From Eunapius fragilis (Eukaryota; Porifera; Demospongiae; Spongillida; Spongillidae), in assembly GCA_963681505.1 (NCBI GenBank), contig OY811982.1, forward strand, positions 6,066,683-6,130,682: 64,000 nucleotides of DNA. Direction: 5' to 3'. Positions 4,812 to 64,000 of the stretch are shown here, piece by piece. Under the pieces are notes generated by a model. The model made no database searches. It was not told the origin of the DNA and saw only the letters and a list, made by a program, of their open reading frames with translations. Position 1 is the stretch's first letter. Each line of letters starts with the position of its first letter. A program made the translations under genes and the position numbers.

Positions 4812-6458
<1,647 letters not shown>

Positions 6459-31982: not shown

Positions 31983-32630
31983 CTTTGTCTAAATCCACAC
32001 TCTCAGTTGATTCTTTCTGTTGCCCACCTACAGCTTCATTCTGACGCACTAAACTTTTGTTCTTGTATTCTAAATTTCCCTTAAGGACTTTCTGCTGCTC
32101 GCCTACAGCTTCATTCTGACGCACTAACCTCATTGCTTTCTCCAGCGTACGATCAGCATCAAGCTGTAAACGCCTAGACAGTGCTTTGTCTCGAATGCCT
32201 ATAACTATACGATCCCTGATAAGCTCTTCCTGGAGGGTACCATATTCACAGTTGCGAGCGAGGCTATGCAAACCTCAGAACATATTGTTCAACCGGTTCC
32301 CCCTCTAACTGGTTCCTGCTATTGAACCGAGCGCGCTCGTAAATAACGTTTCTTTTTACGCGAAAATAGGTTTCAAAGGTCTCAATGGCCTCACAATACT
32401 GTTTCTTCGCCTTTTCAAGAGAGGTAGCTGTTGCCTGCAACACCTAGAGCTCCTCCGCTCCTTCCCCCAGACAATACAGTAATGAATTGACCTGTCGACT
32501 TTCGTCTTCGTTGCACAGTCCCGACGCAACACGATACTGCTCGAACCGCTTCTTCCATCGAGGCCACGCGTCCGCCTCTGTAAAATCCAACGGAGGAGGG
32601 GGTTCTAGTCGAATTTGAGCCATGAACCGC
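31983..32630 (-). pseudogene. gag of the Ty3/gypsy element, broken
   Basis: Starting soon after the primer-binding site the sequence encodes a typical gag N-terminus rich in Trp and Arg around a DAWPRWKKRF motif, then meets a TAG stop near 32443. A frameshift near 32270 is followed by an open piece 31909-32271 with LARNCEYGTLQEELIRDR and a short internal duplication (LVRQNEAVG, twice). Another frame change separates it from the pol zinc knuckles. Gag would form the particle; as written it cannot be made in one piece. Confidence 0.75.
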
Positions 32631-36032: not shown

Positions 36033-39000
36033 ATGAGCGGCAAACGACGATACTGTCACCACTGTGGGGAATACGTGTGTAGAGCTACATTTTTTGAACA
36101 CCAAATGTTAGTAAAATCGTCATCCAAAGCTGATAGCTCTCTTTATGCTCAACAGCAGCTTTCTGTGGAAGGTATGTACAATCATAAACGTGCACGGTCA
36201 CGGAACACCGATGTATGCGTAGCCCTCGATATATAGCTTGCGCTGGAGGAAAGAGGGATATGACACATATTTACCCATGGGTGATTGCGCCGTTTCCCCA
36301 AGTATTGTGACCAACTTGCCCTGTAACTGATTCAGAGCTACATAGGACTTCCCCGCATGACTAAACCAAATTTGACTGTTTTTGATGAAACTAAAATTCA
36401 TATGTGATGTCATACACAGATCGTTGTTCTGGAAGCGAATGTTTAGATGCAGATCCATTTCTTAGTAGTGAAGCTTCATCTAGTGCTTCTGATAACTCCT
36501 GTACAGATGACGTGGAGCTGCAATTTCTGGTATGTTAGTAAATTGCCAACTCCTATGTTTTATTAAAATCCTATATTCTAGGAAGGAGGACTAACCGATC
36601 AGAGTTTAGATAATACTTCAAGCTCAGAATCAGAAAATGAGGTAGTACCTAATACATGTCAGTGAATAATTATAGCTTGATGTTAATCGGCATTTGATTA
36701 TCCCTTGTAAAGGATGTGGCAACAATGCAAGACAATCAGCCAATAAAAGTTCTTTTAACTTTTATTATTATGTGGCAGTTTGCTTTTGGAATATCCAATA
36801 GAGCTATATCTATGCTTGTAAAATTCTTGAGCATTTTTTTCAAGTTTCTTGGAAATGGTGGCACACTTCTTTTTAACCTGTGGGAAATGTTTCCTAAAAG
36901 TTTAAAAGGCTGTCAGAAGTTTATTGATCTCAAACTTCCACAATTTGAACAATTTGTAGTTTGCCCATCATGTGATGCTATCTATCATATCAGCAATTGT
37001 CCAACTACTTGCATTCACAAACAATATCCGAATCATCCTCAAACTCAATTCAGAAAACCATGTGGAGCACCCCTTATTACAAAGCGCAAAGGATCCATTC
37101 GGGCTATAAAGACCTATTGCTACCAACCTTTGCAATCTGCAATTGGTAGCATTATTAACCGTCCAAATTTTCTGGAAAAGTGTGAAATGTGGCGCACCAG
37201 ATACTCAAGTGCTAACTTATTATCAGATGTCTATGACGGAAACATTTGGAAAGAATTTCACACTGTAAATGAGGTTCCTTTTTTGGCTAATCGTAATAAC
37301 TTAGCCATTGGCTTAGGTTGTGATTGGTTTCAGCCATATAAACATGTTAATTATTCAGTAGGTGCACTTTATATATTTTTTTATAACTTGCCACGGGAAG
37401 AAAGAATGAAACTTGAAAATGTAGTCTTGCTTGGACTTATCCCTGGCCCCTCTGAACCTAAAAAAGTAATGAAATCATACTTGAGTCCCTTTGTAAATGA
37501 TATGTTACAATTTTGGGAAGGTGTGCCATTGTGGCATGAATGTACAAAGCAGCTAATAACAATTCGTATGGCACTTCTGTCTGTGATGTGTGATATACCC
37601 GCAACTAGAAAGCTTTGTGGCTTTGCAGGTCATAGTGCAGCACATGGTTGTTCTAAGTGTTTGAAAAAATTCAGTTGGAGTTCAACTGAAAATAAATTAG
37701 ATTATTCTGGTTATGATAGGGATTCGTGGGAAGCAAGAACCAATGCAGAGTACAAAGGTTCCTCAGAGCATTATTTGCATGCACCAACTAAAACTGCAAA
37801 GAAGCAAGTTGTTTCAGAACAAGGCGTTAGATATTCAATACTTGTCCAACTTCCATATTTTGACATCATACGTATGCATACCATTGATCCCATGCATAAT
37901 CTTTTGCTGGGTACAGCTAAACATATGCTTAGTGTCTGGATGGACGAAAAACTTATATCAAAGTCAGCACTACGGAAAATAGCAAGTGTTGCAGCTAAGA
38001 TTTGTGTACCAAGGTAAAATGGTAGATTGCCCCTCAAAATAGAATCAAATTTTGCTGGGTTTACTGCTGATCAATGGAAAAGCTGGATCACAATATACTC
38101 CTCGGTATGCCTAAAGGATCAGTTGCCTAGTGAACATTTACAGTGCTGGCTGCTGTATGTTCGAGCATGTAGCATTCTTTTGAGTACTACTGTAACAAAG
38201 GAACATGTAGCTACTGCTGATGCATATCTGACACAATTTTGCAAGGTATTTTTGAGACTATATGGTGTAAAAAATTGCACAATAAATATGCATTTACACC
38301 TTCACCTTAATGACTGCATTTTTGATTATGGTCCAGTTTACAGTTTTTGGTGTTTTAGTTTTGAAAGGTTCAATGGAATTCTAGGCAGCTATTACACAAA
38401 CAAGCACAACATTGAGACACAGTTTATGAAAAAATTTCTTCAGCACCAAGCATCTGTGTTACTTCAGCTTCCACAAGAATTTGGGAACTTGTTGGCGATG
38501 GATAAAGTAGAGAGTAGCAGTGGGTCTCTTTGGCATGGATCATTTTCACCTGAAATGTTTCAGCTACACCTTCAATTAGCCACATCTCCTATGTCTGATT
38601 TGCCACGCTTGAATTTTAGTGTCAATGAGCTATCTCTGGCAACTCTTTTGCCACCAGTGCATAGAAACTATATGACAGCCAAGATAGCGTCTGAATTAAA
38701 ATGTATCTACAAGTATCTATATACTACTATTAATGACGAAATAACTGCTGAGTATTTTACATCAGTAAAGGCATGCTTAGCTGGGCAATTGTTACATTCC
38801 ACAGAGGCAAAAACAGAAAGAGGATCAATGGTTTGTGCGTATTGGCCAAACAAAGGCTCTGAAGAATTCAATGCTCTGATTCGTTCTGGCTTACCTGGAG
38901 GTGTGCACTTTGGAATAGTACAGTATTTTATTGAGCATACTATAACGCTTGATAAAACACAGAAAAAAAAGCACATATTTGCTTTCATTAAATGGTTACA

Positions 39001-39202
39001 GCATCACACTCATCAATTCTGGTATGGGCAGTCTGCAACAATTTGCAAGCTGACATTTGAAGAATCATCTGTCTGCAATTACCTACCTCTACAACGTATT
39101 TATTCTGTTTGTGCCCATGCAAAACTTGACGTGAATTTTGGTGGTGATAATGAAGAAGTGTTTGTGGCAATTCCATCACATGTTCCGTCTCTATTACGAT
39201 AA
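36033..39202 (+). CDS. CACTA/EnSpm-type transposase (5 exons, one in-frame stop)
   Basis: Exons 36033-36171, 36420-36529, 36582-36641 and 36713-39202, GT-AG borders, phases agree. Exon 1 has a CHHCGEYVC zinc motif and a later His (FFEHQ). Exons 2-3 are Ser/Asp/Glu-rich. The large exon holds the tnp2-like transposase core: NNLAIGLGCDWFQPYK, FYNLPREERMKLENV, LLGLIPGPSEPKK, ATRKLCGFAGHSAAHGCSKC and DPMHNLLLGTAKHM, a conserved DDE-type region; then FTADQWKSW, an NMHLHLHLNDCIFDYGP segment and FECFN-like FERFNGILGSYY; the C-terminal part has FGIVQYFIEH, then CNYLPLQRIYSVCAHAKLDV. A TAA at 38015-38017 breaks the frame between VPR and NGRLPLKIE, which otherwise continues in the same frame. Either a recent mutation or read-through. 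Confidence 0.82.
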
Positions 39203-39457: not shown

Positions 39458-42269
39458 ATGGATGCAGTGGGATTTTATGGAAATCGGCATGTGCAACCGA
39501 TCGCGAGAGGGGGTAGATCAGATTTAGCGTCAACCTTAGAGGAAGTGAAGACTATTTTATCTGTCGTACAGCAAGCACAAGAAAAGCAGGGTGCCGAACT
39601 TGTTCGCATAGCTGAAGAGATCGTGGTTTTGAAAGATGATGTTGACCGTATGAAACCGCATAACCCAACGTCAGGGACCGCGAATCCGCTTTCTACACCG
39701 CCTAGCAGTAGAAGAATTCCTCCTGAGTTAAGCGTATGTTTAGTTATTTATTTCACACGTTGCTCTTATGCACGCACATGTTCGTGTTCAAATTAACATT
39801 ATTCTCTCTCATAGGCTGCAGTCAGAGGGCTTTATGCCAGCCTACCAGACGACAAAAAGTTTATGGCAAAAGAAGGGTAGGTACGAGAGGTATACAACAA
39901 ATTGTAATGAATGTATCCGGCCTCAGATACAAAACGGTTCAAAATCAGCGCGTCACCGCTTATCTGATGGACCAGCTACAGATGATGGAAAGGCTGAAAG
40001 ACCACAGATTGTATTTTTCAAGTAACATTTGTATTCACCAATTGTACTAGATTCGGCAGTTACACTCTGTATCCATCAAGGAGCTGTTTATCGATATTAT
40101 GAATCAAGAAGGAGACTGCACAATGATTCTGCTGACATTAGAGAAAGTGCAGTTAGAAGTAACGAAAAAACAACTAAGAAGCGAAGAACTCAGAGAAAGG
40201 TCAGTCTTTCATGTTCAGAGCAGAACCTACATGTATTATCAATGTTCATCTCAGCTTTACATACAGCGAAGCTCTGTGGTAAAGACAAAAGTGAAGAAAT
40301 ACTGGGATGAAATAGATTATCGATATATGACAGATGAAAGTGATGGAGAGCTTGATGGAAAGACAATAAAAGATACACATCGACCATCTTGGCGATCGAG
40401 TGGTGAGTGCAAAGCATAGGATTTTATTTGTATATCAGTATCATCTGTACATGTGTTGATCTTCGATTTCTTTTAATACCACCGATATTAGCACTGAACA
40501 AACTGATTGAAAAGCTGGATAACCGCCTTGAAAAAAAAAGAGGTGCTCACTATGTGGGGTTTACAAGGTTACCACGATTGGTAGGAGTGTCATCACTATC
40601 AAATGCTCCTGAAAATGCACCAGAATGGGCTGTTACAACCAGTAATGCTTTGAAATTGAGTGAATTTATGTGTTTTACTTTCCTTTATCTGCCGCACATT
40701 ACGACAAGCTAACAGACCTGATGGTAACTGCATGACAAATGTTTTGGTATAAAATTTGTTCACGTCATTTCTATTTAGACCCTCAATTCCTAGCACTCTT
40801 AGAGGTTCAGAACTGTATGTAGTAGTTGAAAGTAAAACTCCAATTAATCTTATTTATTTATTTACAGCCAGACCCTACAGACAAATGCAAGGCAACAGAG
40901 TTCTTCAGGTGATCAGATGAGTTGCATCTTGTTTACGAACATCTATACTTTAAACTATGCAGAACTGCTGGACACACCACCTGCACCACAGAATGGCACA
41001 AAAAAAAGACGGCGCTTGACATATACTGGTAGCAGCTGCATGAATTTAATTGAGTGAAATTATAATCCTTCCCCTTCAAGCAGATAAAAGCCCTGCTCTA
41101 CAGCCTTCAAGACGAGTCTCTGCTAGTCAAGTTCCCCTTCATGACGATACAAGACCTACTCCACAGCCTTCAAGACAAGTCTCTGCTAGTCAAGTTTCCC
41201 TTCATGGCGATACAAGCCCTGGTCCACAGCCATCAAGACGAGTCTCTGCTAGTCAAGTTCCCCTTCATGAAGACACAAGCCCTGGTCCACAGCCTTCAAG
41301 ACGAGTCTCTGCTAGTCAAGTTCCCCTTCATAACGATACAAACCCTGGTCCACAGCCTTCAAGACGAGTCTCTGCTAGTCAAGTTCCCCTTCATGATGAT
41401 ACGAGCCCTGGTCTACAGCCTTCAAGACGAGTCTCTGCTAGTCAAGTTCCCCTTCATGAAGATACAAGCCCTGGTCCACAGCCTTCAAGACGAGTCTCTG
41501 CTAGTCAAGGTCCCCTTCATGACAATACAAGCCCTGGTCCACAGCCTTCAAGACGAGTCTCTGCTAGTCAAGGTCCCCTTCATGACGATACAAGCCCTGG
41601 TCCACAGCCTTCAAGACGAGTCTCTGCTAGTCAAGTTCCCCTTCATGACGATACAAGCCCTGGTCCACAGCCTTCAAGACGAGTCTCTGCTAGTCAAGTT
41701 CCCCTTCATGAAGATACAAGCCCTGGTCCACAGCCTTCAAGACGAGTCTCTGCTAGTCAAGGTCCCCTTCATGACGATACAAGCCCTGGTCCACAGCCTT
41801 CAAGACGAGTCTCTGCTAGTCAAGGTCCCCTTCATGACAATACAAGCCCTGGTCCACAGCCTTCAAGACGAGTCTCTGCTAGTCAAGGTCCCCTTCATGA
41901 CGATACAAGCCCTGGTCCACAGCCTTCAAGACCAGTCTGTACTAGTAAACTTAATAATGTATTTTTAATCTGTTTACTAAATAGCACATCTACAGGGGAC
42001 TTGGCGGGGTCAAGTGCTGTTGCCTCAAAGCTGAAAAGAAATATGTGAGTAAATTTATTTAGATTTACTTGCTTTGCTAACATGGTTTTACATGAATACA
42101 GCTCTTCCAAACGATTACAGTTTAATGGCAAGCTAAAGGTACATTTGTGTTTCCATGATAATGTCTCATTCTCACCTCAGATGTGATGGATGCTTTCACT
42201 AGTGACTCTACAACTGAACCAGATGATGATGAACTGGCATCATTGTCAGATAACAGCTACATCTCTTAA
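39458..42269 (+). CDS. Second gene of the CACTA-like element: coiled coil, basic region, 21-residue repeats, acidic tail
   Basis: Spliced model; several borders are provisional. First exon 39458-39733 (MDAVGFYGNRH, then a coiled-coil-like LEEVKTILSVVQQAQEKQ stretch). Next exon from 39815 (AAVRGLYASLPDDKKFM), then a segment ending near 40020, YRYYESRRRLHNDSADIRES with an NEKTTKKRRTQRK basic patch, a KKYWDEIDYRYMTDESDG exon (from about 40268), an ALNKLIEKLDNRLEKKRG exon (from about 40492), small exons near 40870 and 40960 (ELLDTPPAPQNGTKKRRR) and an exon with about 13.5 copies of a 21-residue repeat. Later small exons end in an acidic tail (TTEPDDDELASLSDNSYIS, stop 42267-42269). Similar second genes accompany metazoan EnSpm-like transposases; DNA binding is plausible but inferred. 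Confidence 0.55.
41083..41935 (+). repeat. 63-bp coding minisatellite (21-residue repeats)
   Basis: About 13.5 copies of a 63-bp unit encoding DTSPGPQPSRRVSASQVPLH plus one acidic or Asn residue. No indels. Variation is mostly at the acidic position (D/E/N/G) and V/G before PLH. The unit is Ser/Pro/Arg-rich, likely disordered, and carries an RRVSAS phosphorylation-like site in each copy. Confidence 0.95.
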
Positions 42270-42492: not shown

Positions 42493-45290
42493 ATGAGCGG
42501 CAAACGACGTGACTGCGGAGAGGACGTTTGCAAATCTACGTACTTCGAGCACCAGTTGGCTGGTGCGTACGAACACGTTGGTAGACTTGATCATGAATTC
42601 ACCAACGATGGTAAGGCTTCATGTAAAACCACTTCATCAGCAATGTGGCGGAGATTGTACCTCACGTCTGTGTTACTTGCTTTGTATACAGTGGACATGA
42701 ATAAACCGTACATTTCTGATTCAGAGTCAGAGATACAGAATCAAACCAGGGTAATGTTGCGTGGAGATAGGCAGAATATCCATGGCAATACATATCTTAC
42801 AAGGTTTCCATTTGTAGGCCATACCAGACCAGTTGTACTGGTTGTGGGAATGTGGCTTTGATGGGTGTGTCCAACTCAGGTGAGTCGCTAAGGGGATTTT
42901 TACGTTTCATATACTGTTGTATGGAGATAGGCACTTTTCAGAATATCCATGGCAATACATATCTTACAAGGTTTCCATTTGTAAGCCATACCAGACCAGT
43001 TGTACTGGTTGTGGGGAAGTGACTTTAATGGGTGTGTCCAACTCAGGTGAGTCGCTAAGGGGATTTTTACATTTCATGTACAGTTGTATGGAGATAGGCA
43101 CTTTTCAGAATATCCATGGCAATACATATCTTACAAGGTTTCCATTTGTAGGCCATACCAGACCAGTTGTACTGGTTGTGGGGAAGTGACTTTAATGGGT
43201 GTGTCCAACTCAGGTGAGTCGCTAAGGGGATTTTTACGTTTCATGTACTGTTGTATGGATATAGGCACTTTTGAGAATATCCATGGCAATACATATCTTA
43301 CAAGGTTTCCATTTGTAAGCCATACCGGACCAGTTGTACTGGTTGTGGGGAAGTGACTTTGATGGGTGTGTCCAACTCAGGTGAGTCGCTAAGGGGATTT
43401 TTACGTTTCATATACTGTTGTACGTAGATAGGCACTTTTCAGAATATCCATGGCAATACATATCTTACAAGGTTTCCATTTGTAGGCCATACCAGACCAG
43501 TTATACTGGTTGTGGGAATGTGACTTTGATGGGTGTGTCCAACTCAGGTGAGTCGCTAAGGGGATTTTTACGTTTCATGTACTGTTGTACGGAGATAGGC
43601 ACTTTTCAGAATATCCATGGCAATACATATCTTACAAGGTTTCCATTTGTAGGCCATACCAGACCAGTTGTACTGGTTGTGGGAATGTGGCTTTGATGGG
43701 TGTGTCCAACTCAGGTGAGTCGCTAAGGGGATTTTTACGTTTCATGTACTGGTGTATGGATATAGGCACTTTTGAGAATATCCATGGCAATACATATCTT
43801 ACAAGGTTTCCATTTGTAAGCCATACCAGACCAGTTGTACTGGTTGTGGGGAAGTGACTTTAATGGGTGTGTCCAACTCAGGTGAGTAGCTAAGGGGATT
43901 TTTACATTTCATATACTCTTGTACGGAGATAGGCACTTTTCAGAATATCCATGGCAATACATATCTTACAAGGTTTCCATTTGTAGGCCATACCAGACCA
44001 GTTGTACTGGTTATGGGAATGTGACTTTGATGGGTGTGTCCAACTCAGGTGAGTCGCTAAGGGGATTTTTACGTTTCATGTACTGTTGTATGGAGATAGG
44101 CACTTTTCAGAATATCCATGGCAATACATATCTTACAAGGTTTCCATTTGTAGGCCATACCAGACCAGTTGTACTGGTTGTGGGAATGTGATTTTGATGG
44201 GTGTGTCCAACTCAGGTGAGTCGCTAAGGGGATTTTTACGTTTCATATACTGTTGTATGGAGATAGGCACTTTTCAGAATATCCATGGCAATACATATCT
44301 TACAAGGTTTCCATTTGTAGGCCATACCAGACCAGTTGTACTGGTTGTGGGAATGTGATTTTGATGGGTGTGTCCAACTCAGGTGAGTCGCTAAGGGGAT
44401 TTTTACGTTTCATATACTGTTGTATGGAGATAGGCACTTTTCAGAATATCCATGGCAATACATATCTTACAAGGTTTCCATTTGTAGGCCATACCAGACC
44501 AGTTGTACTGGTTGTGGGAATGTGATTTTGATGGGTGTGTCCAACTCAGGTGAGTCGCTAAGGGGATTTTTACGTTTCATATACTGTTGTATGGAGATAG
44601 GCACTTTTCAGAATATCCATGGCAATACATATCTTACAAGGTTTCCATTTGTAGGCCATACCAGACCAGTTGTACTGGTTGTGGGAATGTGATTTTGATG
44701 GGTGTGTCCAACTCAGGTGAGTCGCTAAGGGGATTTTTACGTTTCATATACTGTTGTATGGAGATAGGCACTTTTCAGAATATCCATGGCAATACATATC
44801 TTACAAGGTTTCCATTTGTAGGCCATACCAGACCAGTTGTACTGGTTGTGGGAATGTGATTTTGATGGGTGTGTCCAACTCAGGTGAGTCGCTAAGGGGA
44901 TTTTTACGTTTCATATACTGTTGTATGGAGATAGGCACTTTTCAGAATATCCATGGCAATACATATCTTACAAGGTTTCCATTTGTAGGCCATACCAGAC
45001 CAGTTGTACTGGTTGTGGGAATGTGATTTTGATGGGTGTGTCCAACTCAGGTGAGTCGCTAAGGGGATTTTTACGTTTCATATACTGTTGTATGGAGATA
45101 GGCACTTTTCAGAATATCCATGGCAATACATATCTTACAAGGTTTCCATTTGTAGGCCATACCAGACCAGTTGTACTGGTTGTGGGAATGTGATTTTGAT
45201 GGGTGTGTCCAACTCAGGTGAGTCGCTAAGGGGATTTTTACGTTTCATATACTGTTGTGTGGAGATAGGCACTTTTCAGAATATCCATGA
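42493..45290 (+). CDS. Exon-array gene: zinc-motif first exon plus 15 tandem 105-bp exons
   Basis: Exon 1 is 42493-42610 (MSGKRRDCGEDVCKSTYFEH, a diverged copy of the transposase's first exon), ending phase 1 at a GTAAGG donor. Downstream, exons 42775-42879, 42942-43046 and so on every 167 bp to 45113-45217 are each 105 bp, phase 1 at both sides, with AG before and GTGAGT after. Each adds 35 residues: YPWQYISYKVSIC(R/K)PYQTSCTGCGNV...MGVSNS plus a junction Glu. Exon 16 (from 45280) gives EYP and a stop TGA at 45288-45290. A small exon candidate at about 42690-42750 (VDMNKPYISDSESEIQ) does not keep phase into the array, so its use is uncertain. Most units keep three Cys (C-x6-C-x2-C); two units lose one. 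Function unknown; metal binding is a guess. Confidence 0.5.
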
Positions 45291-52246: not shown

Positions 52247-52393
52247 GTAGTGACATGACCAATTGGTAATAATTAGTTAGTTAATTAGACAATCGGCTGT
52301 GTATATATATTGATGTATGTGCATGCAAAATCAGTTGAATCTGTTGCTGCTCTTATGACTTTGGTTGTGACCATTTCCTTGGTGAGTACTACA
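52247..52393 (+). repeat. Presumed 5' LTR of the second Ty3/gypsy element
   Basis: The primer-binding site fixes the right border near TACTACA. The left border (TGTAGTGACATG) is a guess from the TG rule, because the 3' LTR is not in the window to compare. Confidence 0.3.
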
Positions 52394-52394
52394 T

Positions 52395-52409
52395 TGGTGT
52401 CAGGAGTGG
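52395..52409 (+). other. Primer-binding site of the second Ty3/gypsy element
   Basis: TGGTGTCAGGAGTGG, directly before the gag start. It is complementary to the 3' end of a leucine-tRNA type, as in many metazoan gypsy elements. Confidence 0.7.
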
Positions 52410-52410
52410 G

Positions 52411-53571
52411 ATGGCGGAACCCATGGATACGGCTGATAGCAAGGAACGGACCAAGGAGCTACTTCCGGAAGTACAAATGGTGAGAATGAGCTTACGGCCC
52501 CCTTCCCGTTATTCAGGAGGAACAGACCTCGTCCTTTGGTTAAAGCGCTTCGAGATGTACGTACGCAAAGCACAGGTTGACGAGAGCCAATGGACGGGCG
52601 AACTTCTTCCGTTGTTGGACGATGGGCCTTTCAGGGTTGTGTCCCAGCAAGGACTGGTCGATTCGGATGATTACGAGGCTGTGACAATGTGCCTCCGCGC
52701 TCAATACGCGCCCGAGGGAAACCATTTGGAGTGGCAGGCGAAGTTTCATAGACGAGGCCAGAAGGCGGACGAAAACTTGGTGACGTACGTTGGAGAACTG
52801 CGTGCGTTAGCGGATAAGGCATATCCTGGATGGACCAACGAACAACGGTTACAATTGGTAAGGGACCAGTTTGTGCAAGGGGTGTGCTCTTCCACTGTGC
52901 AGCTGAGACTCATGAAAGAAATGCCCAATACTCTGGACGAAGCGCTACAATTGGCGATTCAACAGGAGTCAGTGGAAATAGCACAGAGAAGACTTAGCAA
53001 GGAGTGCGGGCATGGTTCGTCGGTGGCATCCAGCGGTGTTGAGGAGTTAGCAGCGGGTAGCGGACTCGCAGCATTGTCGGTCCAACAGCTCCGGAAACAG
53101 GCCCAAGATTCTGAAAGAATGGTGGAGGACCTTAGAAAACAAGTCGAAGAGCTGAACAGACGGCTATCTGGCAAAGGAAAAACTACCGCTGCTGACCAAC
53201 AACGTCAGTCCTCTACCAGAAAGCAAGGGTCTGCAGTGATTACATGTTGGAACTGCGGGGAGCGAGGTCATGTTCGGCGTAACTGCCCTCGCAAGCGGAA
53301 GGACCATAAGGATTCTTGGCAGGCGGCAGCCGTAAGTTCCACGTTAATGGTGGAAGGTAGTATAGAAGGGCGAGTCACTAGAATGCTTGTAGACACGGGT
53401 TCGGCGGTGACGTTAGTGAGGGAGGATGTTGTTAGAATGGTACCATCGGGAAAGTCACTTACAATGCAGGTACCTGCGAATTCGGTAGTAGCAGCAAATG
53501 GGGAGAAGTTGGACATTATTGGGCAGTGTAAATTGAGCATAAAGGTCGGGGTATCAGCCAAAGATCATCCA
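52411..53571 (+). CDS. Gag and start of protease, second Ty3/gypsy element (first half of a split frame)
   Basis: About 387 codons from the ATG just after the primer-binding site. Gag capsid-like region in the first ~200 residues (WLKRFEMYVRKAQVD, FHRRGQKADENLVTYVGELR, DQFVQGV), a coiled-coil-like stretch (LRKQVEELNRRL), one zinc knuckle CWNCGERGHVRRNC at about 278-291, and the start of the aspartic protease with VDTGSAVTLV at about 326. The frame is cut at a Pro codon by the CACTG element at 53572. The four codons that follow belong to the insert. Confidence 0.9.
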
Positions 53572-54058
53572 CACTGTTAAAAAAAAGGTGTTACCGCAAC
53601 ACACTTCGGGGTGTTCGTATGGATATTTAAAAATAACACCCCCTGGGGTGTAGTGGTAACCGCTTAGGAGTGTTACAGCTAACACCCCTGAAGTGTAGCC
53701 AGTATACTCTATTGGGTGTTGACAGAGGTAACAATATCTCGTATATTTACCGTAAATTGATGATCCCAACATAAATTGATATTAATAAACTATACAACAG
53801 GTCCAATTGATTTTTATAAAATGATGATAAATAAATACAACATGAAGAACACATATATATACGAAACTTAGAAGTCTTTGCACGCCATGACGCTCGAGCA
53901 GGTTATTTCTCTGGTTCAGACACTAAACAAAATAAGATAACACATAAAGGTCAGGTTACAGTACAAGACATGTCTGACCTTAAATCTTGGCCTTCGCGAA
54001 GTAGTATACTGTAACAACGCCGTCGACCGCACTGACAGTGAAATACATTGTTCTGGCT

Positions 54059-54262
54059 TACCTCGATAGCTTGGTAGGGCATGTCCTTTTAGTCTTGCGA
54101 ACTTTGTAAAATAAAATAGGGCGTATTTGAACGCGTGAAAGGGAACTGACGTGTATGGCTTACCCCGATAGCTTGGTAAGGTATGTCCTTTTAGTCTTGC
54201 GGACTTTGTAAAATAAAATAGGGCGTATTTGAACGCGTGAAAAGGAACTTACATGTACCTGG
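54059..54262. repeat. Two tandem copies of a 102-bp unit
   Basis: The unit begins TAC(C)TCGATAGCTTGGTA and includes GTCCTTTTAGTCTTGCG and GGGCGTATTTGAACGCGTGA. The copies differ at a few positions. Confidence 0.85.
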
Positions 54263-54593
54263 ATTCCTCACGCGTATAGTGAGGTAGCGTGCGCTGTAGT
54301 AGCTGGGTAGCACGGTAGTAGAATTTTCCTTAGCGTATATGGCCGAGAAGTGGATTTGAACAGGCATTCCGAACTGCTGTACTAGTATCCCTACCAAGAA
54401 CAACTCGATGCACTCTCTTCAAGGCACCCAACTGTTGTTAATTGAACGACGCATCGCTAAATGTTTGAAGAAAACAACTGGGTTTAAACCAAGCAAAAAA
54501 ATCACCATGCCTATTACCTTTCACGAACACTTTGTATTAAAGGTCACGGAGAACGTGCTATTAAGGGTCACGCATGCGCAATGAAAAATACCC

Positions 54594-54848
54594 TGGGGTC
54601 GAGGCAGCGAAAAGGGACCTAGCTAGCGCATATTTTTTCAAGTTTTCAAAATATTTCATATTCAGAGAGACACCTCTGTCCTCTACAACTTCTTTCATAC
54701 ACACTGGAAATTAGCCTGTCCATCATGGGGTTACAGGGTCCCGAATTTTTAATTACGCGTACATTTATATTGCATGCGTGGACTTTGATGCTCCTTCCTG
54801 GAAATTTTTATAATATGCGCTAGGTCCCTTTTTGCTGCCTCGACCCCA
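54594..54848. mobile_element. MITE of about 255 bp nested in the CACTG element
   Basis: Inverted ends TGGGGTCGAGGCAGC(G)AAAA and GGGACCTAG...CGCATAT, about 38 bp with small gaps. No open frame. No target duplication is clear. Confidence 0.75.
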
Positions 54849-55672
54849 TTTACTCACTAGAAGTTCAATGTTTTTATCAACATGAACACAAAACATGGAT
54901 ACATATTAATACTGATAAAAAGTTGATCCAATTATGACATCATGCTGGTGCCAAGCTTAAGCATGCATGATATGCCAAAACCATTTCAGATATTCATACA
55001 ATATGGCACATGTGGAATCAAAATGCTACCCTGCTATTGACTGACCCATCACATGATCTTCATGGCAACCAGTCTGGTCCAAGTCACATGATCCCCTCTA
55101 TGGCAACCTTTGGTAATGGTCCCCACAGCCATTTCCTCCTCACTCGCTAAAACCTTGTCTGCATCAGGAGTCTTCTCAGTTGTCTCTTCCTTTACAAACA
55201 TGTCTTCCTTACCCTCAGTTCATCCTACATGTATACCTCAGACTACTTGCCTCTCACTATAGTTACTTAATTGCCTCTCCCTACTTGTCAACACGCTATG
55301 TAGTGCTACACATCGATAATAATTATATTCTCTTCCATAAAAATAAACAATAGATGGAGCAAGAGAAAACTAAGGGCAACCCAGATGCGCTTTTATAAGA
55401 GTTACAAGGAAGAGCAGATAAAGAAGTGGCTAGCAACTACGCACTAACGACCAACATATGCAATCAATCTGTGTACATACTTTCACATTACCACGACTCA
55501 AAAAGCTTTTGGCAGTGTGGTATAACCTCAAAGTTTGATACACATGTATTTGTTCAGCAGTTACAATAGTAACATGAATCAAAATGACAAAAAAGAATAA
55601 GCACTTAGCCAGAGTACAGAAAAAAATGATCAGTTACTATAGTCAATCCAGGCATACAGCAAAAATGATCAG

Positions 55673-55951
55673 TTACAATAGTCGATCCAGTGTTGACTTG
55701 ACACAAACAGCTAGGGTAGGTATTTTCTGACTATCCTGGATGTCTAGAATATAGAATTGTCCAAATGTAAGGAATGCTAGACTGGATTTTGGATACTCTA
55801 TATTAAAGGCAAAGTATGCTCCATACAGAGACTTGATAGCCTCCCAGCAAGTTGGCTTCTCTACCAGGATCTCTTGTTCGGTAACAACAAAGATTTGTGG
55901 GGCAGTAGAGTCATGATTCACTATAAGTATGTAGGGCCAGTTTTGTCCCAC
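55673..55951 (-). pseudogene. Gene piece in the CACTG element, unknown family
   Basis: Open frame of 92 codons with WPYILIVNHDST, FVVTEQEILVEKPTCWEAIK and YFAFNIEYPKSSLAFLTF. The pattern (PYI..., FFVV.E, YF.FNI.YPK, F.Q) recurs in many uncharacterised metazoan proteins; a similar piece sits in the other CACTG element near 25.6 kb. A further minus-strand exon-like piece lies at 56536-56775 (VGTDNEEVASERWKMMIPKV). Incomplete as seen. Confidence 0.4.
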
Positions 55952-56180
55952 AGTTTGTACAGCCCGTTCCAGTTGGGTACAAATCTGTCAGGAAAATGTT
56001 TTTCAACACCTACAGATGTTTGCTCACTCCCCTCCTCCTCCACCCCTAAGCCCCTTAGTATTTAGAAAACTCACAGACATTCGGAGCACAACGTTGATAC
56101 TTTTGCTCGCATATTTCTTGGGCGTATGTAAGGCATTGAGTAGCTCCAAAGAGTGCAGTTTGCTCAGTGTATTTGCTGTC

Positions 56181-56183
<3 letters not shown>

Positions 56184-56214
<31 letters not shown>

Positions 56215-56253
56215 CACACACACATGCACACACACATGCGCGCACACACACAC
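56184..56253. repeat. (CA)n microsatellite
   Basis: About 70 bases of CA with TG and CG interruptions. Confidence 0.9.
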
Positions 56254-57214
56254 AAATTTGAACATGTGTAAACAAACAGAAACAGTCACTACTTGTAAAT
56301 CACAAGTGTTTATGTGCATGCATTGTTATTTATACGAAAAGTTTAGCTTGCATTTAGAAAAATTCTAAATCATTTTATCAAGACCCTATATAATTTTAAA
56401 GATGGTGTTTATTATATGCCAATATACCAGAGCTATCTAACTTTAATAAAATGAAATGTGTCAAAGCCATAATATCTTTTCGTATCTGTACATAACTACA
56501 ACTACCCTTTTCACAGTCATTATTCACAGCAAAGATTATCTGTATAAACATGTAAAAATAGCCTCTTTACAATTACCTTCCTCATTTGTGCAATTCTGTA
56601 TCTCACTGAGCTGAGCTTTAAGTATAGCAGAAATATTCTCCCGACTTTCAGCTTCCTTCTTTGACAGTCTGTACACTTTAGGAATCATCATTTTCCATCT
56701 CTCACTAGCCACTTCCTCATTGTCAGTGCCAACTATAGCCACCAGTTCCCTCCAAAGCTGAAGGGTACAAAACACTAAATGAAGCTAAAGACTGTCCATC
56801 ATTAATATTTAATGCATGTTCAGAACTCGTTTTGAATGACAAATACATGTATGTGCATGAACATAAAATATTTGTAAATTCATTACTACTATCACCCGGT
56901 CCGCATCTTCCTAATCAGATTGTGGAGGGAGGATCCTCTCCCACCTTTGATTACCATACCCCTCCCCCTCCCCATTTTCTTACACCTCCCCAATCCAATT
57001 CTCCTACACTGTACCTCCCTAATCAAAACTATCATCCTCCTCACCCTCCTTCCCCCCAGCCTCCTCCCCCTTACACTTCCTGTATCATCCTCACAAGCAT
57101 CTCCATCATCCTTATAGTACACGCTCTCTTGTCCTCCCCCTGCTTACACAACAAAACTAGGTAACCCCAATTGAGTTAATGAGACGTGTTTTTCATGAGT
57201 GAAAAAAAAAAACG

Positions 57215-57580
57215 ATGTCATTGTTATATAAACACACATACATTTTTAATTGCAGGGCTAAATGGGTCACCTTTGCTGGTCAGAAGTATCAAACTATGTG
57301 TATTGTTATTCTAGGAGTGGATGAAGACTACCCTATGTTTGGGCAAGTTAAGGAACTGTACATGATTGATACCACAAAACCTATGGCAATTGTGACTGTA
57401 ATGTCAACGCTTGCATTCAACGAGCACTACCATGGCTATACATTGAGTTATTCAACCTCTACCAGGGTAATATCTCTCAAAACATTGTACAGTCCTTTTC
57501 CACTCCATGCTAGAAGATGTCCAAATGGCGACAGATTGGTGGTAATGAAGCACCATATATCTGGAACAGTTCAAAGTTAA
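57215..57580 (+). pseudogene. Gene piece in the CACTG element, transposase C-terminus-like
   Basis: An open frame with WVTFAGQKYQTMCIVILGVD, FGQVKELYMIDTTK, FNEHYHGYTLSY and LHARRCPNGDRLVVMKHHIS. The order (V.FG+++.+, then a FxxHxH.Y box) resembles the C-terminal accessory part of EnSpm-linked proteins. It may extend upstream through an acceptor near 57253. No complete gene. Confidence 0.4.
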
Positions 57581-58301
57581 AGCGTACATATACTATCCTG
57601 TATGAACTGTATTGACAGGTGATAGACATGATTTTATTGTGTTGGTACCAGATGATTACTATGCTCCTCCTTGAGCTACATGTGATAACATATGAAAAAA
57701 CTTGTGTCCAACAATATATATATGTTCCCATGTAATTTTACTATTAGGGTGTGGTCTAACTAGAATCCAGATGGAGTTTTAACACTGTGGTGCGCATACA
57801 TGAACCACTGCACGCAAGCCTTCTTAAACACAGCTTTGCTGTATACCGTTATTGCACGTTGTAAAAGCGACGCTAACGTGTACAAACGCACTAACCTACA
57901 AACCCACACCGACGAACGCCCGCCAAGGCCAGCGTTTAGTACTGTAAGTCGTGTGCGTGCGTACATACCTTAAAGATAACGTTCGGCTTTAAAGTTCAAT
58001 CCAACTACGAAGTCTGTCACAGCTGCCATAGCATCTTGCCAACCACGCCCTCAATCCGTCAAACAAACATGGCTGGGAACGCGTTCACTGGGGTGTAATG
58101 CGGTAAATCAGTGCTATGACAACACACCTTTTTAAATGTCTTAACACTCCATTATTAGTGCGGTACGGTGCTAACACTCTCGCGTAGTCTGCCAACACCC
58201 ATAGGTGTAAGCTGAACACCCTAGTGTGTTATCATAGCACCCCATGGGCTGTAACACCCCTCAGACCTAACACCCCTCGGGCCTTTTTTTTTAACAGTGC
58301 A

Positions 58302-61300
58302 GTTTTGATAGCAAAGAATTTAAACCAGGAGTGCCTTCTTGGGGCGGATTTTTTGATTAAGCGTGGTTGTATCGTTGACCTTCAACAACAAATTTTGCTC
58401 ACAAAAGAAGGTCCTGTGCAATTCTTGTCACCTATGAGAAGTGGTGTTCAAAGTTCCCCAGTTTGTTTTGTGACGTTGTCTGAAACCATAAATGTCCCTC
58501 CTTATTGTCAAATGTGCCTTCCTGCAAAGGTGTCACGGCATGCAGGTCATTGCACCAGCAGCTCCGGTGCCCTCCTGGTGGAACCAGTGGGACGGTTTAT
58601 GGATCAGCATGGCCTCTTGGTTGCTTACTCCATCATGGATGCTGCTGCTAGTCACACAATGGTCCAAGTTCTTAACCCTGGCTTCGCACCGATTACAGTG
58701 CACAAGGATGAGATAATGGGTATGTTAAAACCTATTGATGATAGTGCTGATTGTGCATCAGTACAATACCCTGCCTGTAAGCAATCCACCCAGTCTGTTA
58801 AGCATTGTATAGAGCAGATGACAGACGGCCTGGCTCCTGAGGTTCGAGAGAGAGTGACTGCCTTGCTCTGGCAGTTCCAAGACGTCATCACGTCGGATGA
58901 CAGTGACCTTGGGCGTACCCGATTGACATCCCATAAAATCAACACAGGGGATACACAACCAGTCTGCCAGCGTGCACGGAGGCTACCCTTTCATCAGCAG
59001 CAAGAGGTACGTGGGTTACTAGATGACATGCTTTCTCGAGGTATCATTGAGCCTAGTTGTGGGCCATGGGCATCACCCATTGTCTTGGTAAGGAAAAAAG
59101 ATGGCACAACTAGATTTTGTGTAGATTTTCGTCGTCTTAATGATTGCACGCGTAAGGATGCCCAGCCACTCCCTAGGATAGATGACACGCTTGATGCTTT
59201 AGGGGGTGCCCGTTACTTCTCAACTCTTGATCTGGCTAGTGGCTATTGGCAAGTAGAAGTTGATAGTAAGGATAGAGAGAAGACTGCATTTGTAACCCCA
59301 TTTGGACTCTTCCAATTTCGTGTCATGCCTTTTGGCTTGTGTAATGCGCCCGCCACGTTTCAGAGGCTCATGGAGCGAGTGCTTGCTGGCCTTCACTGGA
59401 TAACTTGCCTAGTGTATCTTGATGACATTATTATTTTTAGCAGGACAGTCGAAAAACACATCGAGCAATTGAAGGAAGTCCTGGAACGTCTGAAGGGTGC
59501 GGGGTTAAAGGTCCGGCCTAGTAAGTGTCATTTGTTGCAAACTAGTGTGCAGTACCTGGGCCATGTCATATCCGGGGAGGGCATACGTACTGACCCGCAG
59601 AAAGTTGCATGTGTTTCCAACTGGCCAGTACCACAAAATTCAAAAGAACTCCAAAGTTTTCTTGGTCTCTCGTCGTACTATAGACGTTTTGTAAAAGACT
59701 TTGCCCACGTAGCAAGCCCCTTGCATGCTTTGACACAGAAAGGAAGGAAGTGGATGTGGACAAAGGAATGCAATGATGCTTTCTTTGATCTGAAGAAACG
59801 CCTTGTATCCTCCCCTATACTTGCCTTACCTGATTTCAGTTTGCACTTTGTACTAGATACAGATGCCAGTGGGGACGGGTTGGGTGCTGTACTTGCTCAA
59901 ACTGTTGATGGGGAAGAAAGAGTGGTGGCATATGCTAGCAGAGCTCTGAGCAGAACGGAAAAGAAGTACTGTGCCACTAGGCGGGAATTGTTGGCTCTAG
60001 TATGGGCTGCTCAGCATTTTCGGCCATATCTCTACGGAAGAAATTTTACACTACGCACAGACCACCACTGCCTACAATGGCTACATAATTTTAAGGAGCC
60101 TGAGGGACAAGTTGCTCGTTGGTTGGAGTTGTTGGCAGAGTATGACTACAGCTTTCTGCATCGTCAAGGTAAGCAGCATACTAATGCTGATGCGTTATCT
60201 CGGGGTGGGTGCCAGCAGTGTGGATGGGAAGTAGAGGAAGAGCAAGAAGTCAACACTTCCGGTTGTAATGCGGTATCACACTTATTGCTGCCAACATGGA
60301 CAGAAGAGGAGATCAAATCTCTTCAGAAGGCTGATCCAGACATAAATCAGATGGTCCACTGGCTGAGAACTGACACCACACCTAGAGGATGCCCCAAGGA
60401 CGCTTCCTGGAGACTTGAATCCCTGTGGGTACAGAGACGGTATTTGACATTGCAGCATGGGGTGTTGTATCGTTGTTGGGAGGACATACCAGGGGGTGGT
60501 ACTCGTAGACACCTTCAACTAGTCCTGCCTGCAAAATTGGTGAAGGGGGTATTGGAAGGCCTCCACAATACTGTAATTGGTGGGCACATGGGGGAGCTGA
60601 AAACCTTGGAGAAGGTTCGGGCACGCTTTTATTGGCCAGGTCAGAGGAAAGAGGTGGAAAAATGGTGTAGGAATTGTGCTGTTTGTAACTCTAGGAAATC
60701 TCCCAGTCACAAGGCTAGAGCTCCAATGGAAATATGTCAAACACAGAGACCCATGCAGAGGGTTGCCATGGACATCCTTGGCCCGCTTCCAGAAACACCA
60801 AGGGGTAACAAGTATATATTGGTGATTGGTGAATACTTCACCAAATGGAAAGAAGCTTTTCCGTTGAAGGATACTGAGGCATTAACCATTGCTAAAGTGT
60901 TTGTGAATGAATTTGTATGCAGGTTTGGGGTTCCAGATTCCCTGCACACGGACCAAGGGAGAAACTTTGAAGCCAAAGTTCTAAAGGAAGTATGCCAGTT
61001 GTTGGGTGTTAAAAAGACTCGGACAACCCCTTATCATCCCCAGAGTGATGGACTTGTCGAAAGGTTTAACAGAACTTTGTTAGACATGTTAAGTATGGCT
61101 GTAAGGGATGATGAGCATGATTGGGACCTCCTCCTCCCTACCCTGTTATTTGCATATCGCACAAGCTGTCATGCAACCACTGGGGCCACTCCCTTTGAGC
61201 TGATGTTGAGTCGTGATGCCCGCTTGCCTGAGGATGTATTGTTCTCCATCCCAGCCAGCACTGAGGACCCCATTCGGTATGCTGATGTGCTCAAGAACCG

Positions 61301-61511
61301 ACTGCAGTTAGCCTATAAGCGGGTCCGTCAACATATGGAAGTGCAACGAGGACGTCAGAAGGAATCTTATGATATGGATATCAAGGGGGATCCATACTGT
61401 ATTGATGATCTCGTTTTTCTCCACAATCCAGCAGTTCGCAGGGGCCTTTCAAATAAGCTCCACAGACCTTGGCCACGGTTGTTTGCGGCTGGAAACTGTG
61501 CTAATAATTAG
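58302..61511 (+). CDS. Pol of the second Ty3/gypsy element (second half of the split frame)
   Basis: Resumes in frame directly after the insert. It encodes the end of the protease region (CLLGADFLIKRG), reverse transcriptase (FCVDFRRLND, FGLCNAPATFQRLM, YLDDIIIFS), RNase H (LDTDASGDGLGAVLAQ), the integrase zinc domain (HNTVIGGHMGELKTL...WCRNCAVC) and catalytic core (MDILGPLP, HTDQGRNFEAKV, HPQSDGLVERFNR). About 1,070 codons and no stop. The last residues leave the family pattern after SNKLHRPWPR, so the integrase tail and the 3' LTR have been lost at about 61475. The element cannot transpose as it stands because it is split and truncated. Confidence 0.92.
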   Translation, partial: VLIAKNLNQECLLGADFLIKRGCIVDLQQQILLTKEGPVQFLSPMRSGVQSSPVCFVTLSETINVPPYCQMCLPAKVSRHAGHCTSSSGALLVEPVGRFMDQHGLLVAYSIMDAAASHTMVQVLNPGFAPITVHKDEIMGMLKPIDDSADCASVQYPACKQSTQSVKHCIEQMTDGLAPEVRERVTALLWQFQDVITSDDSDLGRTRLTSHKINTGDTQPVCQRARRLPFHQQQEVRGLLDDMLSRGIIEPSCGPWASPIVLVRKKDGTTRFCVDFRRLNDCTRKDAQPLPRIDDTLDALGGARYFSTLDLASGYWQVEVDSKDREKTAFVTPFGLFQFRVMPFGLCNAPATFQRLMERVLAGLHWITCLVYLDDIIIFSRTVEKHIEQLKEVLERLKGAGLKVRPSKCHLLQTSVQYLGHVISGEGIRTDPQKVACVSNWPVPQNSKELQSFLGLSSYYRRFVKDFAHVASPLHALTQKGRKWMWTKECNDAFFDLKKRLVSSPILALPDFSLHFVLDTDASGDGLGAVLAQTVDGEERVVAYASRALSRTEKKYCATRRELLALVWAAQHFRPYLYGRNFTLRTDHHCLQWLHNFKEPEGQVARWLELLAEYDYSFLHRQGKQHTNADALSRGGCQQCGWEVEEEQEVNTSGCNAVSHLLLPTWTEEEIKSLQKADPDINQMVHWLRTDTTPRGCPKDASWRLESLWVQRRYLTLQHGVLYRCWEDIPGGGTRRHLQLVLPAKLVKGVLEGLHNTVIGGHMGELKTLEKVRARFYWPGQRKEVEKWCRNCAVCNSRKSPSHKARAPMEICQTQRPMQRVAMDILGPLPETPRGNKYILVIGEYFTKWKEAFPLKDTEALTIAKVFVNEFVCRFGVPDSLHTDQGRNFEAKVLKEVCQLLGVKKTRTTPYHPQSDGLVERFNRTLLDMLSMAVRDDEHDWDLLLPTLLFAYRTSCHATTGATPFELMLSRDARLPEDVLFSIPASTEDPIRYADVLKNRLQLAYKRVRQHMEVQRGRQKESYDMDIKGDPYCIDDLVFLHNPAVRRGLSNKLHRPWPRLFAAGNCANN

Positions 61512-61924
61512 ACTATTACGGTATTGGTTTCGAAATGGTGAAATGACTGCTAATTAAAGACACCCAATGTTTTCAAGCTGTCCATAACTCAGAACAACCA
61601 GCTAATGTATAAATGATAACAACTGAGAGCACTAGACACAATTTCTTGACATGTTCATTTTATGCGCATACCTCAAATTGCACCATAATAGTATGCGCAG
61701 GCCGTTTTTATAAGAGCACGCGGCACATTATTACGAGGTGGTTACGAAACTCGGCAGCGTGGACTCTGTGTACTGATCTATGAGGTAAGCATATAATACA
61801 AATGACCAGAAGGCGTGTGACAATCGGAATAAACAAGCCTAAAGCGCTGACGTACTCTCTATCCCACAAACAAGACTAGCGTATTTTATGAATAATCGAT
61901 AAAGTTCATGCGTACGCATTGTAC
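61512..61924. other. Upstream region of the RAG1-like gene
   Basis: About 410 bp of AT-rich sequence between the truncated gypsy element and the first coding exon. I see no CACTATG or CACAGTG word here, so no RAG-type transposon end is visible on this side. Confidence 0.5.
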
Positions 61925-64000
61925 ATGAACATGATTATAGGAATGGAGTACCACATCCAGCAAGTGCCTATGTATTGCAGAGTGTGTGGGCTGAGGCTAA
62001 AGAAGACCAGAGAGAAGCCAAATACTTGCTACCATTGCAAGGTTTTCTCAGCAGAGCTGAAAATTGCCTTTAGCATTGACACCTCGAGTGATGATGCCCG
62101 CATACAACCAGAAAGTTTCTGCATCTGTTGCAAGCATTCTATGCAGAGAATTATCAACGCAATCACAAAGGGGTTGCACTACAAGTGTGCTGTCATCCCA
62201 TTTCAGTGGCTTAAGCATGAGGAGAAGGAATGCAAGGTAGAACTATTGCTTTAAAATCATATACATGTATTTGAAATAACAGTGTTCATGCAGGTGTGTG
62301 AGCACTTCAAAATGTGTGCACATGGACATGTTAGGAGGTCGACAGTGTCTAGTGGACGACAAGCAGGCATCACTCCTAACTTGCTCATTACCCATCTGTG
62401 GAAGATTGCCCCTCCTCCAATTGTTCTACATGAGCCTTGTCCACTAACGGCAGCCAAGAACAGCATGTCAATCTTGAAGGAGCTGAAATGTGTATTATGT
62501 TCCAATATTCTCTCACAGCCACTGGAACTTGCATGCAGTTCACTCGTATGCACCAAGTGCATAGTTGATATGATAGCAGCCTCTGGTTCTGTGAACTGTC
62601 CTTTCTGCTCAGATGATGGCCCCCTTGTTCCATCTCATATCAGACCAGCATCGAATGCTATACTTCTGCTGCTATCAGAAGTTTTGGTTCATTGTACAAG
62701 TTGTGGTCAGGATGTTAAAGCTGTAGAATATGATGCACATGAATGTGTACCATCGCTTACACCTGGAGAAGAAAGACAAGCAGCGGAACTTCTGAAGAGG
62801 GCTGTATCCTGTAGTCCTGAAACAGGTGCCATACAGCTTGCTACAGGATTAGGAGGACAAGTTAAGCGTATTTAGTGATGGTATGATACTATTAGTATTA
62901 CATACTAACAATTTATCACTTAGCCAATCACATTCATACAACTTACTAAAGCCAGGCAACAAACCTCAGCTGCCTGTGCAAAGACAGTAAAGACAAGGTG
63001 CTCTGAAATGCAGTCTATACGCAGCATTATCTGTGGAGGAGATTCATCTGCCCTCATCCAGAGAGAAGTACTCACCCTCACTGATAAAGAGCGCCAATCT
63101 TTGTTGGATGAAGCAGGCATCTCATCTTCAAGAGAAATTGGGGCTGCTGAGGTATTGGCAATAAAGGCTGGGCTTGCCATGCCTTGGAATAAATTGCGAC
63201 TACTAAGACGGTATAGCTTTGCAATACAAAATAGTGCAGGTGGTATAACTCACTGTCTTTTTCAGGTGGCTGAAATCATCAGGGATTTGTCTTGCTGGGG
63301 AGGAGAGGGTGGGACACATTTCAACCCACATTGTGGGTGATAACTTGAAAGGCGAGATTGCCCCCTTTTCATTTCCACTTCCTTCTGGTGGCGAGGAGAT
63401 AAGAGGAGCCCCTTTGGTGTACATTCCACATCTTGTGGACAAGGTTGCACAACTCTTAGATGGGAATGAAAGGTAAGAGAAGTCACGACAAATGGATTAA
63501 TACTCTGATTAGATGTGTTTTTAGGGCAGGCAGGCTTACCTGGCATGAAGGTTATATACCTCTTAGCGAGGTGTGGCTAAAGATAGGAGGAGATAAGGGT
63601 GGTGGAACATTCAAGATGAATTTTCAGATTGTCAATGTTGCCACACCAAACTCAGTGCATAACACGTGTGTGTTTAGCTGCTTTGCGGCTGGTGATAGCA
63701 TCACCAATTTGCATATGGCACTTGACCGCTTTAAAGACCAGGTTGAACATCTGCATGGAATGAAATGGAGGTAGGAAATAAGGCTTACAAGTAAAAATGC
63801 ATTTTATTAATTTTTTATTAATTTGCAGGCAGTACACGACCAAGGTATTTGTGTGTGGTGACTATGAGTTTCTGTCCAAGATGTATGGCATATCTGGAGC
63901 CAGTGGTATGTGAAGTGGACTCAATACAAATTTAACTGATGTAAAATCATGAACATGCAATAGGATGCTACCCTCGTCCATACTGCATCATCAAGAGTGA
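61925..64000 (+). CDS. RAG1-like protein, 5' part (7 exons in window, continues beyond)
   Basis: Exons 61925-62236, 62294-62860, 62924-63210, 63266-63472, 63525-63770, 63829-63905 and 63964 to the edge; introns 57, 63, 55, 52, 58 and 58 nt, all GT-AG and phase-matched. Exon 1: a zinc-binding region (CRVCGLRLKK, PESFCICCKHSMQRI, WLKHEEKECKVC) laid out as in the RAG1 non-core N-terminus. Exon 2: a RING finger (CVLCSNILSQPLELACSSLV, CTKCIVDM, CPFC), then PASNAILLLL and LVHCTSCGQDVKAVEYDAHEC, matching the zinc finger after the RING in RAG1. Exon 3: FIQLTKARQ and LAIKAGLAMPWNKLRLLRR (nonamer-binding/dimerisation area by position). Exons 5-6: catalytic core start (EVWLKIGGDKGGGTFKMNF, CFAAGDSITNL, VFVCGDYEFLSKMYGISGAS). 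The two Asp in GGD and AAGD are candidates for the first DDE acids; the Glu lies beyond the window. The start could be any of the Mets at 61925, 61931 or 61943. A nuclear recombinase/transposase role is inferred from family. Confidence 0.82.

Follow-up and report, generated by a model that had tools for sequence, protein, structure and literature searches.

Chapaev transposons are described as having CAC/GTG ends, target site duplications (TSDs) of 3-4 bp and transposases with C(2)C, LH and H(4)H motifs (PMC4079192). Two Chapaev subgroups combine a Chapa domain with a RING finger and were used to infer the history of RAG1, and the transposase of RING-bearing Chapaev (CMC/CMCT group) is distantly related to Transib and RAG1 (Kapitonov and Koonin 2015, PMC4411706). 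The C(2)C and H(3-4)H motifs are common to CMC, Transib and RAG1 (PMC12730594). Transib lacks RING and Chapa domains and generates a 5-bp TSD (PMC4411706, PMC8355894); its ends are mostly symmetric (PMC8289069), with 12/23-like asymmetry in a few insect Transibs (PMC8355894). ProtoRAG has 27/31 spacers and a 5-bp TSD (PMC8289069), RAGL transposons carry a RAG1L/RAG2L pair (PMC7204232, PMC8355894), and N-RAG-TP of Aplysia is a transposon with a protein resembling the N-terminus of RAG1 (PMC8355894).

The window analysed here is a 64,000-nucleotide stretch of the genome of the sponge Eunapius fragilis (contig OY811982.1, positions 6066683-6130682), at the right edge of which the original prediction placed a RAG1-like gene. 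The tempting reading of a sponge RAG1 gene is corrected here to one of a transposon family. The feature is, with little room for doubt, the left half of an inactivated cut-and-paste transposon of the RING-bearing subgroup of the Chapaev group, inserted in a sponge Gypsy element, and its single multi-exon gene is predicted to encode a transposase with a RAG1-homologous N-terminus and a RAG1-fold DDE core. The element is of an ordinary kind and is not a new immune gene.

Boundaries, target site and copies of the element

Compared by blastn with 17 other 10-kb loci, the window locus (L009) shows sharp element boundaries. The window copy ends beyond the window at position 7462 of its locus and measures 6806 bp, ~2.28 kb of which is a later insertion. 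Its termini read CACGG...CCGTG, with CACGGTTGTTTGC at the left and CACGGTGGTTTGC, inverted, at the right. The frame 58188-61511, identified by Pfam as a Gypsy pol with RT, RNase H and integrase, is cut by the insertion at 61473/61474 (Table 1). The empty site exists elsewhere: the joined 26 bases of the Gypsy flanks are intact, with 0 mismatches, at 11 other genome sites (control, 0). A perfect 4-bp TSD flanks 22 of the 28 copies that have both ends (26 of types A-D and two of type E), and a perfect 5-bp TSD flanks none of them; L011, L020, L022, L023 and L025, which lack one end or in which it was not located, were excluded from the TSD and identity counts. In copy L012, 6 bp are duplicated, adjoining a rearranged end.

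Table 1 Coordinates of the transposon, its insertion site and its gene in the window.
Feature	Position	Strand	Remarks
Gypsy pol ORF broken by insertion	58188..61473	+	Pfam
4-bp TSD TGGC	61470..61473	.	second TGGC follows right end, beyond window
RING-bearing Chapaev-type transposon, left part	61474..64000	+	edges from blastn with 17 other loci
Left end, outer box CACGGTTGTTTGC	61474..61486	+	
Left end, inner box TGGAAA	61490..61495	+	starts at base 17 of end; base 28 in right end
Exon 1	61925..62236	+	N-terminal zinc region (Chapa / RAG1 importin-binding-like)
Exon 2	62294..62860	+	remaining zinc region, RING, then zinc finger
RAG1 dimerization-domain match within exon 2	62444-62740	+	
RING, Pfam stretch within exon 2	62489-62608	+	
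Exon 3	62924..63210	+	
Exon 4	63266..63472	+	
Exon 5	63525..63770	+	DDE core start; DUF1280 match
Candidate first catalytic Asp, exon 5	63592-63594	+	in GGDKGGG
Exon 6	63829..63905	+	
Candidate second catalytic Asp, exon 6	63860-63862	+	in GDYEF
Exon 7, cut by window end	63964..64000	+	C(2)C zinc motif
Arg replacing first Cys of C(2)C, exon 7	63975-63977	+	

Searches of the 218.9-Mb assembly (24 contigs) yielded 138 left and 98 right ends with at most two mismatches, and 0 with reversed-pattern controls. Both the cut Gypsy frame and the repetition of the unit across the genome were overlooked in the original prediction. A 561-base query from exon 2 gave at least 41 genome matches, with 40 of 108 candidates scored; among the matches listed, 31 are at 90-100% identity and eight at 74%, and two at 88-89% are pieces of one copy. 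The other two-ended copies are mostly 4.2-4.6 kb long, with one of 3.4 kb. Pairwise identity divides 26 copies into the subfamilies A, which includes the window copy, B and C, and a single D copy. Identities are 96-99.6% inside the subfamilies and 61-75% between them, apart from L014, a rearranged A copy with 84-87% identity within A. With copies mostly this alike the subfamilies are young, and many informative copies are therefore available. Two further copies of ~3.0 kb, L040 and L041 (family E), have the same ends around an interior that is mostly unrelated apart from one 123-base stretch; the RING-bearing transposase may have mobilized them in trans.

Gypsy sequences at 52339-61473 (+) comprise a gag-like ORF (52339-53580) and the pol ORF that served as the insertion target. 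A further Gypsy pol ORF lies at 29034-31988 (-), and a Transposase_21 element (EnSpm-type) at 36698-39202 consists of two same-frame ORFs with a single stop between them, the second with a weak DUF4218 match only. Tandem arrays of the window comprise a perfect (ATC)549 trinucleotide array (4812-6458; 1647 bp, 100% matches), a satellite-like array with a 167-bp unit (42772-45289; 15 copies, 97% matches) and a 63-bp minisatellite (41069-41946; 13.9 copies) that contains ORFs of 332 and 300 aa in two forward frames. Four ORFs, at 550-1191 (-), 1658-2278 (-), 14149-14904 (+) and 20004-20843 (+), share a similar domain ending in IYNVDYKILPA or FNLEYLILPA, which follows Pro/Thr-rich linkers, with 12-bp repeats in two of them; by their predicted sequences they are a small local gene family.

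Gene structure and state of the copies

From 61925 to the end of the window, seven exons, separated by six introns of the GT-AG type, form one reading frame of 577 residues with zero stops, and the protein runs off the window end. The in-frame joining, the six clean introns and the absence of stops claimed by the original prediction are thereby confirmed, as is the RAG1-type order of domains, since the N-terminal zinc region, the RING, the finger, GGD and AAGD all occur in the translation. Its conclusion that these features point to a maintained gene and away from a dead transposon does not hold, because the gene is part of a repeated unit with ends and TSD that is damaged in the window copy; clean introns without stops are compatible with a young insertion.

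The damage is of three kinds. In 17 aligned copies the first Cys of C(2)C is retained in 14, replaced by Arg in the window copy, deleted in one and without data in one. The run of exon 7 beyond the window lacks one base relative to most sister copies, equals that of L010 in length and is hence out of frame there. Finally, the 2.28-kb insertion splits the last part of the copy. The window copy is thus dead. No intact copy was found in the read-through, which covered L010 and L012 with one spliced model each: both models contain stops, some of which may stem from the chosen exon borders. Seven more subfamily A copies were unmappable with exact anchors, and seven copies, L012 among them, were compared exon by exon via tblastn. 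In the first six exons (508-562 codons), six comparisons between subfamilies give a dN/dS of 0.15-0.17, with dS close to saturation at 1.0-1.7; four comparisons within subfamily A, where changes are few, give 0.37-0.68. The low ratios between subfamilies and the relaxed ones within A indicate selection while the lineages were active and little afterwards.

The low ratios between subfamilies, together with the frame that stays open across seven exons, might also be read as the mark of a transposon-derived host gene, domesticated and under selection at the window locus. However, constraint between subfamilies is expected of an active transposon and is relaxed within A, the ends and TSD are intact with nearly identical copies elsewhere, and the locus has lost a zinc-ligand Cys, the frame of its exon 7 run and, through the 2.28-kb insertion, its continuity. 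A maintained host gene was rejected on copy number, ends, TSD and damage, and its probability is close to nil.

The N-terminal region of the transposase

Pfam assigned the window protein to DUF1280 (PF06918) with an E value of 1.4e-12, and RING (E 0.019) and RAG1_imp_bd (E 0.12) scored below the cut-off. The single window sequence matches the RAG1 dimerization domain (1rmd) with E 3e-7, ahead of generic RING proteins (E 1e-4 onwards). The profile built from 12 relatives matches residues 150-373 of full-length mouse RAG1 with E 1.2e-14, and hhalign of 22 N-termini with 11 RAG1, a one-against-one comparison, yields Prob 99.5 and E 2.3e-23 over 259 columns. Sequence comparison of the predicted proteins shows homology of the transposase N-terminus to the non-core N-terminus of RAG1, a resemblance that lies beyond chance. 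By analogy with RAG1, the RING may serve as an E3 ligase or as a dimerization domain.

At least 84 protein relatives were found among the 8000 best candidates, which were the ones scored; of those listed, 81 of 84 are labelled Ephydatia muelleri or carry an 'Em' identifier, and one is from a sea anemone. A second search from one relative gave 27 proteins including the query, among them proteins of 1000-1100 residues with RAG1_imp_bd and DUF1280, some of which also have the RING. Among 12 aligned relatives (E<=0.1), DUF1280 is present in all 12, RAG1_imp_bd (PF12560, taken as equivalent of the Chapa region) in 10 and the RING family PF15227 in nine; PF12560 scores above the cut-off in P0088, P0086 and P0098. 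Three transposase relatives of Ephydatia muelleri contain other Pfam domains, namely P0037 (PF00530 and PF15494), P0069 (PF00443) and P0073 (PF05699), and these predicted proteins are either host fusions or annotation errors.

The catalytic core and its relation to RAG1

Motifs were counted in 30 aligned relatives out of 110 found. The first catalytic Asp is present in 30/30 and the second in 28/30, the first Cys of C(2)C in 28/30 and the second in 28/28 with letters, the His of LH in 23/23, and those of H(4)H in 25/25 and 22/22. Glu 1002 is present in 22/22 and Glu 1006 in 22 of the 23 with letters.

At E<=1, the RAG1 core family PF12940 matches neither the window protein, which is truncated within its core, nor full-length P0088, P0086 and P0098; a true RAG1 (P0111) scores E 0 in the same library. 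Plain sequence comparison did not return the RAG1 core among the best 60 of 64 matches of the single sequence, nor did the profile of 12 relatives among the best 60 of 186. Alignment of core with core by hhalign (24 against 11) resulted in Prob 39-45 and P 2-3e-4, whereas five decoys, two of them reversed and three shuffled, gave P 0.13-0.36; the sequence similarity of the putative core to that of RAG1 is weak. The best structural match to the predicted structure of a relative is a RAG1 core chain, starting at RAG1 residue 458, and Transib matches more weakly, so that a RAG1-like core fold is strongly supported by the model. The nonamer-binding domain of RAG1 was not detected by hhalign (P 0.39; shuffles, 0.37-0.68), and a likeness of GGxP...GGD to this domain, noticed by eye, was dropped since that P value is similar to those of shuffles. 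In copy L010, none of eight non-exon ORFs has a Kelch, PHD or RAG2 match, leaving the RAG2-like neighbor suggested by the original prediction without a candidate in that copy; its longest ORF outside the transposase frames is antisense, with 125 residues. A genome search with PF03089 (RAG2) gave 0 matches, with the positive controls equally silent.

By family the protein is not RAG1: Pfam reports DUF1280 in place of the RAG1 core family, the TSD has 4 bp in place of 5 bp, and hhalign did not detect the nonamer-binding domain. The HMM search suggested as a refutation places the protein outside RAG1/Transib at the Pfam level and not outside it at the level of the fold. A RAG1-like transposon or gene proper (RAGL / ProtoRAG / TransibSU), sister to vertebrate RAG1, would explain the collinearity of the N-terminal homology, the ranking of the RAG1 core chain above Transib and the CAC ends. 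It is nonetheless very improbable in light of the TSD, of 4 bp and in 0/28 copies of 5 bp, the weak similarity between the cores, the nonamer-binding domain undetected by hhalign, the eight L010 ORFs devoid of RAG2 likeness and the core match to DUF1280 where true RAG1 matches PF12940. The element has the Chapaev hallmarks of 5'-CAC...GTG-3' termini, a 4-bp TSD and, in the relatives, C(2)C, LH, H(4)H and the DDE residues, and its Chapa zinc domain precedes a RING finger, as in RING-bearing Chapaev; this assignment follows published hallmarks.

Bipartite and unequal ends

The inner box starts at base 17 in 100/100 exact left ends, with the gap left free between 0 and 16, and at base 28 in 64/65 exact right ends, one having it at 32; the first 23 bases were constant in the right-end pattern, which left freedom to vary to just the last part of the right spacer. 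Searched without a fixed spacer in the 26 full copies, the box stands at 28 in 26/26 right ends and at 17 in 25/26 left ends; the remaining left end, that of L021 (CACAG), stands at 17 by offset scan. The two positions differ by 11 bp, which is one helical turn of DNA and the spacer difference between the 12- and 23-RSS.

The scan of left against inverted right ends gave 0 and +11 as the two best offsets in subfamilies A-D. The inner box TGGAAACTAGG of B and C matches between the ends at 12/13 positions; among 2000 shuffles, 2 (B) and 1 (C) attain this value, and among 2000 interior pairs, 13 (B) and 26 (C). The match is 10/13 in D (143 of 2000 shuffles, 344 interior pairs) and 8/13 in A (1828 of 2000 shuffles, 1901 interior pairs), and A, being not above shuffles, proves nothing on its own. 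Among subfamilies A, B and C, 33-38 of the left-most 40 bases are identical, and the following windows up to base 440 have 13-30 identical bases of 39-40; the right-most 80 bases have 32-35 of 39-40 per window. Both family E copies have TGGAAACTTAG at both ends; the inner box stands at 17 in either left end and, in the right ends, at 28 (L041) or 32 (L040), and it is altered (CTTAG for CTAGG) at both ends alike.

In the proposed mechanism, the transposase would bring together one left and one right end, with inner boxes at bases 17 and 28 respectively, cut at CAC and insert with a 4-bp stagger. It is conceivable, if doubtful, that the ends are two-part recombination signals (outer CACGG, inner TGGAAAC) of which the transposase, without RAG2, pairs only unlike ones, a 12/23-type rule in a sponge sister branch of the RAG1/Transib superfamily that would predate the RAG1-RAG2 pair. 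The unequal spacing may instead be a functionless accident of one ancestral element, to which we give a serious chance, somewhat short of even. All subfamilies share ancestry, hence the counts are not independent; the right spacer is itself conserved in sequence and was mostly fixed in the search pattern; and the inner matches of A and D are those reached by 1828 and 143 shuffles. Such an accident is harder to reconcile with a best inner match at +11 in each of A, B, C and D, the rarity of the B and C values among shuffles, the constancy of the position in left ends with a free gap and in all but one of the right ends, and the change of the family E inner box at both ends. Should unlike ends indeed be paired in the absence of RAG2, a simple one-protein system would be available for studying how the 12/23 rule arose, and the rule, or a readiness to evolve one, would be older than the RAG1-RAG2 pair.

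Comparison with known systems

The sponge element resembles RING-bearing Chapaev in its Chapa zinc domain followed by a RING and in its Transib/RAG1-related transposase, and differs from the published description, as far as the available text of PMC4411706 goes, in its sponge host and in its bipartite ends with an 11-bp inequality, which are unmentioned there. Neither unequal Chapaev ends nor RING-bearing Chapaev in sponges appear in the open-licence PMC titles and abstracts searched. The original prediction saw in the locus a bearing on the age of the RAG1 architecture; since a zinc N-terminus with a RING is already in print for Chapaev (PMC4411706), an ancient origin of this arrangement is no new inference. 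The present contribution is that the RAG1 architecture, except for the nonamer-binding domain that hhalign did not detect, occurs with the non-core N-terminus and the predicted core fold together in transposons that are neither Transib nor RAGL, and that a near-invariant 11-bp difference between the ends bears on how the RAG system arose.

With vertebrate RAG1 the element shares, by homology, the N-terminal zinc region, the RING and the next finger and, by prediction, the core fold; like the RAG1 signals, its ends begin with CAC and are unequally spaced. Unlike vertebrate RAG1, it is a transposon with a 4-bp TSD, its core is weakly similar in sequence, the nonamer-binding domain was not detected, and copy L010 has no RAG2-like ORF. 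CAC ends and a RAG1-type core are also features of Transib, from which the RING and Chapa domains, the 4-bp TSD and the weaker structural match set the sponge element apart; the 12/23-like asymmetry described for insect Transibs gives the 11-bp asymmetry a precedent in that group. The bipartite asymmetric ends recall ProtoRAG, and the RAG1-type core ProtoRAG and RAGL, although the offset is 11 bp in place of the 27/31 spacers and the TSD is 4 bp in place of 5 bp. By description, the element is also like N-RAG-TP of Aplysia, reportedly the work of Panchin and Moroz in 2008, as a transposon with a protein that resembles the N-terminus of RAG1.
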